Assembly: GCA_947176375.1 (NCBI GenBank)
Contig: CAMWQM010000002.1
Location: forward strand, 1 to 64,000
Direction of reading: 5' to 3'
Length of the DNA: 64,000 nt
From: an uncultured Helicobacteraceae bacterium
Lineage (GTDB): Bacteria; Campylobacterota; Campylobacteria; Campylobacterales; Helicobacteraceae
Below the pieces are notes generated by a model, which was given only the letters and a program-made list of their open reading frames with translations, ran no database searches and was not told the DNA's origin. The position numbers and the translations under genes are program-made. Below, in pieces: positions 13,868-55,951 of this stretch (position 1 is its first letter; the number at the start of each line of letters is the position of its first letter).

Positions 13868-13876
13868 CCCCCCCCC
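13868..13876 (-). repeat. G9 homopolymer (C9 on plus strand)
   Basis: Nine consecutive G on the coding strand, 8 bases upstream of ATG 13859. Tracts of this length slip in Helicobacter and Campylobacter. Confidence 0.85.
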
Positions 13877-50394: not shown

Positions 50395-50724
50395 TTGTAA
50401 ATAAGATTTTCATCGTCATTACTAAAGAAACTTCGCTGCTAGCAGCTCGTTTTGCAAGCAACGCAGTTGTGAATTTGAGAGATTTTGGCTTCATCGTTAT
50501 TGCGAGCGTGAGCGAAGCAATCCACAAAATTAACTTTATTTTTAAAGATTCTCTTTTTTAGAATCTCTTTATTTGGTTTAATCCTATTTAGATTCTTTGT
50601 ATTTTCTTTTTGCAAGGGGGGGGGCAAGGGGGCTTGAATTAGCAAGCTCGCTCCCTTTCCCCTTGCACCCCCAAACCCCGACGACGCTAGAAGGTGCGTT
50701 CCGCACACCAATTCCATTTATTTG
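50395..50724. repeat. Dispersed-repeat-like intergenic region with a G9 tract
   Basis: Contains ATTGCGAGCGTGAGCGAAGC then AATCCACAAAAT (about 50498-50529), GTCATTACTAAAGAAACTTC near 50416, and a G-rich part (G9 at 50616-50624; CTCCCTTTCCCCTTGC near 50651). The composition is unlike the neighbours. Such units recur in many Helicobacter genomes in my general knowledge; copy number here is untested. The minus-strand frame 50439-50717 through it does not look like a protein gene. Confidence 0.55.
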
Positions 50725-51168
50725 TTATGATTCAATAGTTTTTATTTCAGATTCTGTGAGACTATAGAGTTTATACACTAAACAATCAATTTGCGATTCT
50801 AGTTTGCTTGTGTCAAGGGTGGAATCTTTGGCTTTAGATTCTAAAATATCATCGACTAAGGCGATGATTCTATCGGCAATTTTTTGGTTTGATTTGGTGA
50901 TTTTTGGGATAGGGAGCTTTTCGATATATTGTTTTATCCACCGAAATGCTCCATCTCCCAAATTTGAAGCAATTTGTCGCATATAAAAATAAATCAACTT
51001 TGAGTTTAAAATCGCGCATAAATATGTATCATCTCGTGGGATAAAATAGCAAGTTTGATTAATATAAAATCCTTGTGCATCATAAGTAAAGCAAGGCGTG
51101 TTTGTCATCTCTGCCCAGATAATCTTACCTTGATATTGCATATTAGAATCCCGCACAAAAGATTCCAA
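50725..51168 (-). CDS. Target-recognition module 3 of the type IIG locus (needs frame change to be read)
   Basis: 147 codons, nominal TTG start without a ribosome-binding site. It holds a TaqI-like C-terminal specificity module: QGKIIWAEMTNTPCF, LCAILNSKLIYFYMRQIASN, FRWIKQYIEKLPIPKITKS and the closing LESQIDCLVYKLYSLTESEI. The frame is open upstream through the (GA)8 tract (TEIIENLYYLLES). Losing one GA, or gaining two, joins it to module 2. Alone it is unlikely to be translated. Confidence 0.7.
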   Translation of the reverse strand: MESFVRDSNMQYQGKIIWAEMTNTPCFTYDAQGFYINQTCYFIPRDDTYLCAILNSKLIYFYMRQIASNLGDGAFRWIKQYIEKLPIPKITKSNQKIADRIIALVDDILESKAKDSTLDTSKLESQIDCLVYKLYSLTESEIKTIES

Positions 51169-51188
51169 TAAATAATAAAGATTCTCAA

Positions 51189-51746
51189 TTATTTCTGTTC
51201 TCTCTCTCTCTCTCTTGTTGAAAATTCAGATTCAATTAAGTTTATCTCATTTTCATTCAATCCATAGGCTTGATAAATCAAGGAATCAAGGTGAGTTTCT
51301 AAATCGGCTATGCTAGAGTTAGAATCTGCTTCTTTAGATTCTAAAATCTCACTTGCAAGATTTTCAATCTCTTTTAAAAGTGTAGAATCTATTTTATGAG
51401 TTTCTACCACAGGTAGTTTTTCTACAAAGATTTTGCTCATAGATAAACCATCTGCTCCAAGTGTGCTACAAATTTGCTTTAAATACCAAAAACTCATTTT
51501 TGAAGCAAGGACGGCGTTAAGATATTCTAGATTCTCACCCTTAATCATAAAAGCAGTTTTGTCTAAAAAATAACCCATTTTATCAAGCATAAAATTCACA
51601 CCTTGTGTTGTTTCGGGATAAATAATTTTAGATTCATACCGATAGCTTGGTATTTTAAGTCCCTCACAGAATTTAAAGGTTTCTTTTAACTCTAATTCAA
51701 AATTTTCACAAAGCAACTTCACTAAAACAATAAGTTGAGATTCCAC
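51189..51746 (-). CDS. Target-recognition module 2 of the type IIG locus (fused when the G tract is 10)
   Basis: 185 codons, nominal GTG start without a ribosome-binding site. The module contains KIPSYRYESKIIYPETTQG, LNAVLASKMSFWYLKQICST, MSKIFVEKLPVVET and LETHLDSLIYQAYGLNENEI, alignable with modules 1 and 3. With one added G at 51785-51793 the main gene reads ...GGGAEQYSLAYLLLAC into this frame without a stop. It ends RERERE-QK inside/after the (GA)8 tract. Confidence 0.75.
   Translation of the reverse strand: MESQLIVLVKLLCENFELELKETFKFCEGLKIPSYRYESKIIYPETTQGVNFMLDKMGYFLDKTAFMIKGENLEYLNAVLASKMSFWYLKQICSTLGADGLSMSKIFVEKLPVVETHKIDSTLLKEIENLASEILESKEADSNSSIADLETHLDSLIYQAYGLNENEINLIESEFSTREREREQK
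51199..51214 (-). repeat. (GA)8 dinucleotide tract (TC8 on plus)
   Basis: Eight GA units on the coding strand near the end of module 2. A change of -1 or +2 units places module 3 in frame; the tract is the likely second switch. Confidence 0.85.
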
Positions 51747-51766
51747 ACAGGCAAGGAGCAGGTAAG

Positions 51767-54700
51767 CTAAACTATATTGTTCTGCCCCCCCCCATTACTT
51801 ATTAGCTCTATTTCCTCATTGCTTAAGCCATAGAGGGAGAAAACCATAGAATCTAGCTTGGATTCTAAAGAATCAAGGCGAGATTCTAAATCTTGCAATT
51901 CTTCTTTATTATTAGAATCTTTTTCTTCTCGCAAAAAAGGGTTTATCCCCTCCACGCTCCCCTTAGCCCCAAAAAAGACACCGCTTTTTTGGCAATCAAG
52001 GGGAGAGCCTCGCTTATTCGCTTCTAGCTCTAATCGTGCGGAGGCACTACTGCCTCCTTTTTCCACGATTTCCGCACCACGAAGCGAGCGAGTATTTTTG
52101 TTGCCCTTAGCTCCTAAAGACTTTTTGCACTCTATAATCTCTCGCATGATTGCTATAAATTCTACTTCTTGGCTTTGAGTAATTTTTGGGATTGGGAGAT
52201 TTTCTAAAAAGGCTTTCTTGTAGCGATAGCCACTTTCTCCTAATCCCCCTCCTGCATAAAATTCCTTAAAGGCAAAAGTGCAAAGTTTAGAATGTAAAAG
52301 CCCTAAGAGGTATTCTAAACTCGCTTGCATTTTGTCATATTGAGGGCTTTTGCCCGAAATATCTTTTTTAGAATCATTAAGAGATTCTTCGCTTTTTTGC
52401 GAAAGCTCAGAATGACAATTTGCTGTTAAAATAAAGCTTGTCGCTTCTGCATAGAAATGTCCAAACTTAAACTCACCATTGTCTAAATAAAATTGTGGTT
52501 CTCTAACGATTTCACTATATACGATTTTAGGTTTGGCAAATTCATTATAATATGCAATGTTATCCTGCGTTTCAAACCATTTGTTGCTTGTTTTCTTTCT
52601 GCAACCTTTTTCACCACTTTGTGCTATGCGTGGCATAAAAGATTCTAAATAGCTTTTTACTGCTGGATACTCATCAATATCAAGTTTTAAGGCGGGAAAA
52701 GTGCCTATTATCCACAATCCCGCCCATTCATAGCTATATCGCTTAATGTCTCTCCCACGCAAAATCGGCTTGATGAGCTGTGCTGTCCTTGCCCTCTCGT
52801 TCTCATCTTTGCAAGCTTTTAGTATCTCCTCTCTTTTTGCTGTATCAATAATAAAGGCTTCATTGTAGCCTGTCAAGATTCCACGATAAATGTTTATATC
52901 CCAATCCTTTAGCGGTGTGCCAATAGATTCTATTTTTGCTTTCAAGGCTGCAACCTCTGGACTTGTGAAAATAAAGGAATCCGTGCTTAGGGAATCTTGG
53001 GGGATTTGAGTAAGCTCTAAGCTCTCCTCTAAAGGTTTGTTTTCTTTGGGATTATAATCCTTTGGATTTGCATAGTTTAAGCTGTGGCTTGCATCGGCTT
53101 TTACCTTATGAAATTCTAAAATACTCGTATCCACCATGGCGGATTCAAAAACTTTCACACCATTTAAATCAAGATAGGTATTTATTTGCGTATTTTTAAG
53201 CAAAAATTCTCGCAAAGGCTCACCATAAGCAGCCCTGCACCATTTATTAGAGGTGATGAAGCTTAAAGTTCCATTTGGTGATAAAATCTTGTAGCCTTGC
53301 TCATAAAAGTAAGTGTAAATATCACTCGTTCCCTTGTAAATACTAAAAGTTTTTTGGAGTTGAGGCTTTAAGTGTTTGATTTCTTCTTGCCTAATATACG
53401 GCGGATTCCCAATCACCAAATCAAAGCCCAAAAAGTCTCCATTATTATCTAGCACTTCGGGGAATGCAAATCGCCATTCAAAGGGTTTATTAGATTCTAG
53501 GTTAAAAATGCTTTCGTATTCCTTTTTTAGCGCATCAAATTCCTTTTGTGCAACTTTCGTATCAAACTCACCAACAAACAATCTTTGCTGCACATAGAGG
53601 CTCAAATCATTATCGTCTTTTGCAAGATAGTTTCCATATTTCTTAGAATATTCCTCGCATTTTATATCAAAGCTCTTGATTTCTTTTTTGAATTTATCTT
53701 TGAAGCAAAAAATCTTAAAGGCTTGAAGCAAGTCTTTGATTTGTTCATCGATTTGGAGTTTGTCTTGATAGAATCCCTCTTTGTAGTTTTGCACAACTCG
53801 CTTATAGTCTTGCATTTTTGTACCAATATTAGGATAGTGCGCAAGATTTGCTTGAATGTCAAAGTAGCTCACTAGGCTATTCCCGTCTTTAATGTTAATA
53901 TCAATATTGGGTAAAGTTTGGAGTTTGTGAATCTTAGAATCCTCATCTTTGGCAAAATTCAGATAATAGCTATTTTTAAGCAGCTCTATCCAAAGACGAA
54001 GGCGACAGATATTCACAGAGTTAGGATTAATATCCACGCCAAAGAGATTGTTTTCTATGATAGATTTTTTTAGAGCAAAGAGTTCTTTTTGGATTTGATG
54101 ATTTTTATTTTCTTTTTTGGGTCGTTTGTAGGAAAAGACTTCTCCTGCACTATCTTTGATAAAAAGCTCATCATTTATAAGGCTAACTTCACAATCACTT
54201 AAAAATAATCCTAAATAATGATGAATATAAATAAGCTCATTAAGTGTTGAAACAAGAAAATGTCCACTGCCTACGGCTGGATCGCAGATTCTAATAGAAT
54301 CTAGCAAATTTTTGTAACTCTCTTTAATCTCTTGGCTTTTGTCTCTATTTGAACGGATTTGTGCTTGGATTTCTTCTGCTATATTATCTAGATTTTTGGC
54401 ATTCCAATCGGGATTTAAAGTATTAAATTTTGCTAAAACAATTTTATTTAGAGATTCTTTACACATATAGCTTGTAATAAAGCTAGGTGTATAAAAGCTC
54501 CCCTCTTTATATCCATTTAGTTTCTCAAAAACAAGCCCTAAGACAGAAGAGTTTATTAAAGGCTTCTGCTCTAAATGGGGAGGAGTATTAGTAAGAGAAT
54601 CTATGCTAGATTCTACTTTTAAATCCCCCTCTATCACACCAAAATCAAAGGCATCTAAAAACTCAAAAAGATAATAAAGCCATTTTTGCTTACCTTGTTT

Positions 54701-55951
54701 TTGTTTAGCGTGAATATCTTTAATTTGTGTGTTAGAAAAATACTCTAATTCCAAATCACTCAAAGTTCTAATCTCTATAAATTCTTTGCTATCTTTACTA
54801 AAAAGGCTAGAATTAAGATAGGGAAGATAAGCTAAAGTGGGATTAGAATCATCTCTATCCTCTATTTTTCTAGCTAAAATCTTAAAGAATAAATCATTTA
54901 AAATAATATAATTTGGGATTTTCTCTTTATTTAAAAAACTCAAATTTTTATCGTTATTAAAATTTATAAGATTTGATTCTAATAGCTTTAAAAAGAGGAT
55001 TCTATTTATCCAAATGATTAATATTTCTAGGATATTTTCATCTATTTCTCCATTTTTAAAGCTCTCTAAATCTTTTTTAGACTCTGCTAGATTATTGAAA
55101 ATATTGTAATACAAAGTGCCTTTGGCTCCCAATGTTTGATCGCTTGGCTTTAGTAAAATCTTACCATTTATAGACTTTTCACAAAGTCCTAAAATGTAGA
55201 GCAACTCATTATAAAAGTTTTGGTTTAGGGTATTTGCGTCATTTGGATTAAATTCATTTAATAAAAAATCTCTATGAAAGACTTTGTAAAGATTACTATC
55301 GGTGCTTTTTATATCAATATCTAGCCCATTTAGTGCTTCATTTTGATATTCTTGTGAATCTAAGATTTTGCTTATTTCACTATAAAATTCCTTTGTATTA
55401 CCTTCAAATAGGCTTGAATTAGATATAAAATTTTCATATAACTTTTTAAAAGATTTGTTTTTATAAAAAAGTCTCTCAAATTCTTTTGCCTCAAAAATAA
55501 AAAAACGATAAAAATCTGTAATGATGATATGTTTTATAGAGCTATTTTGCTTCTCTCGTTCTCTAAAGTAATACAGAATTGCCTCGTGCAAGGCTTTAGA
55601 ATTAATATTAGTAGAAATAAAATCCCTATTATTTGGCTTTTTGGCTTCTATAATTACTTCTATATTAGAATCTTTTAATATTACTAAATCAATCTCACTT
55701 TTGCCTTTTTGTTTGCTCTTAACCTTAACTTCAAAATCCAAATTTCGTAAAAATTGAGCTAAAACATTAGCTACTAAATGGTCTTCATTTTCTTCTTTAT
55801 GCATTTGTAAGTTTAGCAAATATTGCTTCTTTGCATTCTCAAAATTATTGCGTCTATCGCTGTTTTTTATGCGATTATAAAGTGGATTTAAAAAGCTATT
55901 TATTGTTAATTTTTTAAAACTCAAACTTTTAGATTCCACATCAGATTTCAT
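51767..55951 (-). CDS. Type IIG restriction-modification enzyme (nuclease + N6-adenine methyltransferase + specificity module 1)
   Basis: 1394 residues; a single protein that both cuts and methylates DNA. N-terminal PD-(D/E)XK nuclease: SEIDLVILKDSNIEVIIEAK (about 85-105). Helical linker, then the Eco57I-type methyltransferase: motif I DPAVGSGHF (about 554-562), FGVDINPNSVNICRLRLWIE, motif IV NPPY (about 847-850), then ITSNKWCRAAYGEPLREFL. The TaqI-like specificity domain lies at about 1040-1370 (AYYNEFAKPKIVYSEI, AFLENLPIPKITQ, LESRLDSLESKLDSMV). It ends GLSNEEIELISNGGGQNNIV in a G9 tract. Strong GGAGGGGG before the ATG. Two in-frame repeat insertions sit in the specificity region. Resembles C. 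jejuni Cj0031/32, also phase-variable. Confidence 0.93.
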   Translation of the reverse strand: MKSDVESKSLSFKKLTINSFLNPLYNRIKNSDRRNNFENAKKQYLLNLQMHKEENEDHLVANVLAQFLRNLDFEVKVKSKQKGKSEIDLVILKDSNIEVIIEAKKPNNRDFISTNINSKALHEAILYYFREREKQNSSIKHIIITDFYRFFIFEAKEFERLFYKNKSFKKLYENFISNSSLFEGNTKEFYSEISKILDSQEYQNEALNGLDIDIKSTDSNLYKVFHRDFLLNEFNPNDANTLNQNFYNELLYILGLCEKSINGKILLKPSDQTLGAKGTLYYNIFNNLAESKKDLESFKNGEIDENILEILIIWINRILFLKLLESNLINFNNDKNLSFLNKEKIPNYIILNDLFFKILARKIEDRDDSNPTLAYLPYLNSSLFSKDSKEFIEIRTLSDLELEYFSNTQIKDIHAKQKQGKQKWLYYLFEFLDAFDFGVIEGDLKVESSIDSLTNTPPHLEQKPLINSSVLGLVFEKLNGYKEGSFYTPSFITSYMCKESLNKIVLAKFNTLNPDWNAKNLDNIAEEIQAQIRSNRDKSQEIKESYKNLLDSIRICDPAVGSGHFLVSTLNELIYIHHYLGLFLSDCEVSLINDELFIKDSAGEVFSYKRPKKENKNHQIQKELFALKKSIIENNLFGVDINPNSVNICRLRLWIELLKNSYYLNFAKDEDSKIHKLQTLPNIDINIKDGNSLVSYFDIQANLAHYPNIGTKMQDYKRVVQNYKEGFYQDKLQIDEQIKDLLQAFKIFCFKDKFKKEIKSFDIKCEEYSKKYGNYLAKDDNDLSLYVQQRLFVGEFDTKVAQKEFDALKKEYESIFNLESNKPFEWRFAFPEVLDNNGDFLGFDLVIGNPPYIRQEEIKHLKPQLQKTFSIYKGTSDIYTYFYEQGYKILSPNGTLSFITSNKWCRAAYGEPLREFLLKNTQINTYLDLNGVKVFESAMVDTSILEFHKVKADASHSLNYANPKDYNPKENKPLEESLELTQIPQDSLSTDSFIFTSPEVAALKAKIESIGTPLKDWDINIYRGILTGYNEAFIIDTAKREEILKACKDENERARTAQLIKPILRGRDIKRYSYEWAGLWIIGTFPALKLDIDEYPAVKSYLESFMPRIAQSGEKGCRKKTSNKWFETQDNIAYYNEFAKPKIVYSEIVREPQFYLDNGEFKFGHFYAEATSFILTANCHSELSQKSEESLNDSKKDISGKSPQYDKMQASLEYLLGLLHSKLCTFAFKEFYAGGGLGESGYRYKKAFLENLPIPKITQSQEVEFIAIMREIIECKKSLGAKGNKNTRSLRGAEIVEKGGSSASARLELEANKRGSPLDCQKSGVFFGAKGSVEGINPFLREEKDSNNKEELQDLESRLDSLESKLDSMVFSLYGLSNEEIELISNGGGQNNIV
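51785..51793 (-). repeat. G9 phase-variation tract at the end of the type IIG gene
   Basis: Nine G on the coding strand. G9 ends after QNNIV; G8 ends after GGGRTI; G10 fuses to module 2 (predicted 1587 residues). Confidence 0.9.
51930..52120 (-). repeat. In-frame repeat insertion 2 in the type IIG gene
   Basis: About 60 codons after module 1's KITQSQEVEFIAIM helix: RSLRGAEIVEKGGSSASARL then ELEANKRGSPLDCQKSGV and FFGAKGSVEG. The DNA is G+C-richer than its surroundings and reads like other dispersed repeats, not like a specificity domain. Confidence 0.55.
52330..52430 (-). repeat. In-frame repeat insertion 1 in the type IIG gene
   Basis: Encodes CHSELSQKSEESLNDS and SGKSPQYDKMQA between FILTA and SLEYLLGLL of module 1. 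The DNA (CATTCTGAGCTTTCGC, GCGAAGAATCTC) is of the widely dispersed TCATTCTGAGC...GAAGAATC repeat type. Confidence 0.6.

Follow-up and report, generated by a model that had tools for sequence, protein, structure and literature searches.

Whether the recognition end of a single restriction-modification enzyme can be extended stepwise by slippage of short repeats, and what such extension would do to its specificity, is the question raised by a locus within a 64,000-nucleotide window (the whole stretch of DNA that was analyzed) from an uncultured Helicobacteraceae bacterium. The gene and its downstream modules are on the minus strand. In its assembled short form the gene (51767-55951) encodes 1394 aa, with the start assigned to the ATG at 55951, immediately 3′ of the ribosome site GGAGGGGG. 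PADLOC classified it as REase_MTase_IIG (E=0, 1296.6 bits, residues 11-1159), and Pfam identified the domains DUF7149, DUF7814, Eco57I (2.6e-40) and TaqI_C. The N-terminal DUF7149 region contains the sequence SEIDLVIL...EVIIEAKK (55637-55699), which we take to be a PD-(D/E)XK-type nuclease motif and whose D, E and K columns show no variation across 12 relatives. An AdoMet-binding methyltransferase motif, DPAVGSGHF (54257-54283), and a catalytic motif of the N6-adenine type, NPPY (53396-53407), follow; columns of the former are nearly all invariant in 12 relatives, and the latter is invariant. Nuclease, gamma-type N6-adenine methyltransferase and TRD thus share a single chain, which is the type IIG layout. 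The window gene has no on/off tract, and many of its relatives bear a G/C tract close to their 5′ end. Because the short form matches ordinary single-TRD enzymes from Campylobacter and Helicobacter relatives, it is probably active alone. Identity to Campylobacter homologs is 44-52% in the core. The closest PDB relatives found by sequence search span the methyltransferase part alone, and the TRD array taken by itself gave no sequence match in the structure search.

The TRD was divided using Pfam matches, motif positions and alignment. Part A (LKDWDINIYRG ... IKPILRGRDIKRYSYEWAG ...; 52535-52912) is present in a single copy. Module 1 (51794-52534), delimited by profile match and assigned to TRD type 1 by clustering, comprises part B and the closing helices. 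It is followed by linker 1 (..ALLLxxxIES..VKLLCENFExELKEAFRFCEGLK..; 51642-51784), which linker comparison found to be conserved between species, and by module 2 (51215-51641), a second part B of type 6 with a TaqI_C match of 6.5e-7 and dN/dS of 0.16-0.40. Linker 2 (RERERTEIIENLYYLLE...; 51139-51198), common to other species in the same comparison, leads to module 3 (50725-51138), a third part B of type 2 that is followed by the stop codon (TaqI_C, 3.4e-15; dN/dS 0.13-0.18). Both downstream modules exceed the Pfam curated cut-off for TaqI_C. Module 1 matches this profile from position 1, whereas modules 2 and 3 span positions 36-118 only. From this limited match, and from the likeness among modules (37% identity between modules 2 and 3, E 2e-30; 38% over 66 aa between modules 1 and 3), modules 2 and 3 are judged to be half TRDs, that is, additional copies of part B. 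The extra domains therefore resemble part of the enzyme’s own TRD, and the sole matches to module 3 in its own genome were modules 1 and 2 of the same gene. An initial annotation had described three tandem specificity modules, which says too much of modules 2 and 3, each of them half a TRD. Its strand-helix-closing-helix order common to all three was recovered by module comparison, and the matches to TaqI_C bear out the kinship with TaqI-like specificity domains that it had expected of modules 2 and 3.

An AF2 model of module 3, built from an alignment of 32 modules, had a mean pLDDT of 89.2 and a pTM of 0.82. It was superimposed on M.BseCI 441-576 (Z 14.4, 2.0 Å, 128 aa), CamA 442-577 (Z 13.9), PglX 769-936 (Z 12.3) and MmeI 743-893 (Z 10.8), and module 3 is predicted on this basis to adopt the fold of a TRD C-terminal half plus closing helices. 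By tail comparison, its C-terminal tail is of the kind typical of single-TRD enzymes. Module 1 contains two long in-frame inserts (near 51937-52109 and 52320-52430) that are missing from modules 2 and 3. These were considered as dispersed genomic repeats, an idea that was dropped when a DNA search of the genome returned the locus itself only.

A slippable tract is present at each of the two internal module ends. The assembled protein terminates in ...NGGGQNNIV, five residues past a G9 tract (switch 1; 51785-51793, minus strand). Frames were re-read with altered tract lengths. With G7, G10 or G13, the frame stays open into module 2 and gives 1586-1588 aa, ending in the GA tract as assembled; G8, G9, G11 and G12 each reach a stop within five codons past the G tract. 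The GA tract is (GA)8 (switch 2; 51199-51214, minus strand), and when switch 1 is open, 4, 7, 10 or 13 GA units fuse module 3 as well, for a total of 1738-1746 aa. Both wrong phases of each tract meet a stop within five codons. These values agree with the initial annotation, in which the 1394-residue gene stopped at G9 past module 1, G10 gave 1587 residues, and 7 or 10 GA units opened module 3 (1741 aa with G10 and 7 GA); the placement of both tracts at module ends was also confirmed. Since module 3 can be reached only via module 2, the locus has three protein states, not four. A slippable tract after a complete TRD thus opens into a further recognition domain, and tracts of slippable length, a reversible frame and a conserved downstream frame, as in phase-variable genes, are all found here. 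Note that G9 and (GA)8 are near the lower length limit for phase variation, which counts against the switching reading. The exact flank pattern was also searched in viral contigs for tract-length variants, without a match.

Long tracts were defined as G/C runs of at least eight or dinucleotide repeats of at least six units. The 64-kb window contains four, of which two are the array switches. The third consists of nine G at 50616-50624, downstream of the array, and the fourth of nine C at 13868-13876, in a small ORF adjoining rpsI.

Related genomes were surveyed with a family-wide search of 121 genomes and a scan of named genomes, using a module profile built in this analysis; an array was defined as two or more tandem part-B modules. 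This survey, which had been suggested as a check on the original reading, yielded 23 arrays: 20 in Helicobacteraceae genomes (window counted), two in Campylobacter and one in a Neisseriaceae MAG. Named carriers are H. turcicus, H. saguini, Helicobacter sp. SUG33, and Campylobacter UBA1713 and MIT 21-1684. A repeat tract occurs at every one of the 33 module junctions, starting between −11 and +17 bp from the module end. All but one of the junctions (32/33) open into the next module by a change in tract length, and 14/33 are in frame as assembled. Junction tracts are of the types G, C, AG, CT/TC, AT and CA. In the 31 junction windows outside the present locus (1,860 bp) there are 31 long tracts, versus 6 across the other ~194 kb. 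Natural fusions exist. The nearest relative, L013, which is of the same genus, encodes three modules in one 1665-aa frame via G9 and (AG)10, and L056 encodes three in one 1786-aa frame via G9 and (AG)8. These two fusions and the openable junctions support the stepwise addition of modules by slippage that had been proposed from the window alone. In L092 the array comprises four modules with three G tracts. Relatives in Bacteroidota, cyanobacteria and other groups possess one TRD, and its end bears no tract.

The core gene is broken or out of frame in several array carriers (for example L049, L084 and L098). Farther 3′ of the arrays in L076, L071, L074 and L085 are partial TRD pieces consisting of closing helices only, as if modules come and go at the array end. 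A G/C tract proximal to the 5′ end, an on/off switch, is found in L047, L067, L074, L085, L091, L096 and L102, some of which add a module switch; L119 has G10 near the start plus (AG)12 at a module end. Five relatives have an alternative TRD downstream in opposite orientation: L059:2679-3447(+), L080:2024-2846(+), L081:2511-3174(+), L082:2295-3066(+) and a minus-strand ORF in L070. These start at or near the conserved sequence RPILRGRDIKRYxYEWAG and share with the expressed gene inverted repeats of 47-424 nt that are 92-100% complementary. They look like silent cassettes for inversion switching. The L070 array is itself located within the inverted downstream cassette, and L080 combines an inverted alternative TRD with an (AG)13 module switch.

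Values of dN/dS for modules range from 0.08 to 0.40, also for pairs whose modules are currently out of frame, and indicate that purifying selection conserves the modules. Linkers flanking the tracts are conserved at the protein level across species. The tracts themselves vary: equivalent first junctions carry G, C, CT, TC, AT or CA, and junctions with the shorter linker carry AG or G. What has been retained would therefore be slippability and not the tract sequence, and the six repeat types at equivalent junctions are strong comparative evidence that selection maintains slippability itself. Stops in the wrong frames come at a median of 3 codons, compared with 7 at control positions (64 frames, p < 5e-4), as would be expected where the short forms are genuine products. 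Module types are shared among positions 1, 2 and 3 and are also met as the sole TRD of single-module enzymes; type 2, which is module 3 in the window, is the sole TRD in L045, L055 and L082. Tails of last modules are like those of single-TRD enzymes, and tails of first and middle modules are different. Module 2 of the window and that of L013 are separated by a dS of only 0.27 versus 2.4 for the cores, and over 428 bp the DNA of module 1 is 94% identical to that of L084, a genome of a different genus. It follows from these two comparisons that modules travel between species as cassettes.

Taken together, it is probable that the recognition end of the window enzyme is extended stepwise by slippage, with a change in specificity. 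As assembled (G9), the G tract is out of phase and the product would be the complete 1394-aa enzyme, with part A and module 1 as its TRD. Slippage to 7, 10 or 13 G would join module 2, and if switch 1 is open and the GA tract is in phase (4, 7 or 10 units), module 3 would be joined too. Each module would serve as an alternative copy of the C-terminal half of the TRD, and a joined module would displace module 1 beside part A. A population could then contain as many as three specificities of methylation and restriction, which have the part-A portion of the site in common and differ in the part-B portion. We infer slippage in the population, expression of each form and specificity change at the window locus, and with them several methylation states. 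That a joined module displaces module 1 and so alters specificity is the most likely outcome, and is favored because domain addition altered the methylated motifs of H. pylori JHP1272 and HP1353-HP1354. An AF2 model of L013 that included three modules and the methyltransferase had a pLDDT of 68.7 and a pTM of 0.55, and several of the module-only alignment rows were ambiguous. This low-confidence model gave compact fits, through module 2 only, to PglX (model residues 1-1024; 4.0 Å, 465 aa) and to M.TaqI (model residues 3-920; 4.0 Å, 311 aa), whereas fits that end in module 1 had an rmsd of 17-20 Å. The model agrees with displacement, but at this pTM the domain arrangement is unreliable and is taken as a hint only.

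Modules might instead be added without replacement, so that module 1 stays and the long forms either acquire a second or third recognition activity or read a longer, composite site, with several motifs marked by one polypeptide. This we regard as possible but rather doubtful. Consistent with addition, every module has a complete part B and closing helices of its own, and the extended form of JHP1272 in E. coli methylated the new motif (92.3%) as well as the old one (72.8%) (PMC3936762). Part A, however, is in single copy, HP1353-HP1354 moved cleanly to its new motif (PMC3936762), and the L013 model puts a later module, not module 1, in the TRD place, if weakly.

Three other readings are less likely than stepwise DNA slippage. 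Modules 2 and 3 could be decaying, never-translated leftovers of former TRD exchanges, given that both switches are closed in the window assembly and that partial TRD remnants lie 3′ in several relatives (L076, L071 and L074, for example). Frames that stay open for 201 and 166 codons, the dN/dS range of 0.08-0.40, the tract borne by every junction and the existence of relatives with natural fusions make this very improbable. An equally slim chance attaches to the downstream modules being separate small specificity proteins, made from internal starts and acting in trans. Starts are available at GTG 51746 (185 aa) and TTG 51168 (147 aa), and there is the case of H. pylori HpyUM032XIII (PMC4450513), in which a specificity subunit split by G12 acts separately. 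Neither start, however, is preceded by a ribosome-binding sequence, and linkers 1 and 2, which are 5′ of these starts, are protein-conserved across species in the fused frame. It is also highly unlikely that ribosomal or transcriptional slippage, rather than DNA slippage, yields all forms in each cell: a G9 tract could permit some polymerase slippage, but the equivalent junctions elsewhere carry dinucleotide tracts (AG, CT, AT and CA). Dinucleotide tracts are classical DNA phase-variation tracts and unusual as sites of RNA or ribosome slippage.

Several parts of the arrangement have precedents. The initial annotation had cited single poly-G switches in Campylobacter Cj0031 and in H. pylori enzymes. 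Cj0031 of Campylobacter jejuni, a type IIG enzyme (CCYGA, 1243 aa, Eco57I plus TaqI_C; PMC4889913), has, as far as described, the same one-polypeptide layout as the window gene, but it is not the closest precedent. Its G9 tract is at position 2573 of 3732, in the catalytic half, where it switches the whole enzyme on or off (PMC4889913), and it has a single TRD, whereas the window tracts are at module ends. Closer are H. pylori JHP1272 (Hpy99XIV) and HP1353-HP1354 (HpyAXVI), which gain an additional C-terminal recognition domain (CTRD) by fusion across a second homopolymer tract late in the gene (Krebes et al., PMC3936762). As in the window gene, the tract-gated extra domain resembles part of the enzyme’s own TRD. 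Addition of the CTRD changed the methylomes from GGWTAA to GGWCNA and from CRTTAA to CRTCNA, with one change clean and one partial (PMC3936762). The H. pylori enzymes have one extra domain, versus two or three in the present arrays, and two poly-C tracts of which the first is an on/off switch, versus six tract types in the present family. JHP1272-like genes were found via the MmeI methyltransferase model. Eight likely orthologs (L207-L214, recognized by their size, a pair of poly-C tracts and a tail of ~110 aa resembling the CTRD) gave no match to the module profile at E≤1, so the displacement analogy would be functional and not by descent. Pfam MmeI_TRD had no match in 120 family genomes. Within L207-L214 (Helicobacter genus g2) the poly-C phases vary by species; L209, L210, L212 and L213 have the first of the two tracts open.

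In the BcgI-like system HpyUM032XIII of H. pylori, S1 and S2 are split by G12 and recognition changes from CYAN7TRG to CYAN7TTC (PMC4450513). Poly-G length governs the joining of a second TRD there as in the window gene, but in that system specificity resides in a subunit of its own and there is one switch. For H. canadensis, phase variation at the C-terminus was proposed in general terms, without recognition modules or arrays, unlike what is seen here: tracts at gene ends alter or extend the C-terminus or join two reading frames (PMC2823697). In domain movement (DOMO) and inverting hsdS loci, recognition domains shift position and species like the present modules, but by recombination and not by tract slippage (PMC3077401, PMC7394358). 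The tract-gated extra recognition domain is thus known already, from JHP1272, HpyUM032XIII and the H. canadensis C-terminal variation. What is new is more than one extra module, nested switches, half-TRD cassettes that change places within arrays and between species, the variety of tract types and the broad distribution in Helicobacteraceae. A search of the open-licence literature returned no type IIG enzyme in which tracts gate more than one extra TRD.

Most phase-variable methyltransferases are switches with two states, and the window gene would give an ordered three-state series, its order set by the frame because module 3 is available only by way of module 2; L092 has four modules and three tracts. 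More generally, the chances seem even that Helicobacter and its relatives possess a type IIG family that acts as an epigenetic counter, with up to four interchangeable, tract-guarded half-TRD cassettes and ordered specificities, in which the long forms may read several motifs together. With the arrays, it becomes possible to test directly how the resident half-TRD is overridden or supplemented by an extra one. They also amount to a natural collection of TRD halves that can be interchanged and that have counterparts in single-TRD enzymes; some of these come from Campylobacter, in which motifs of related enzymes are known. Such a collection could aid the prediction of specificity and the engineering of type IIG enzymes.
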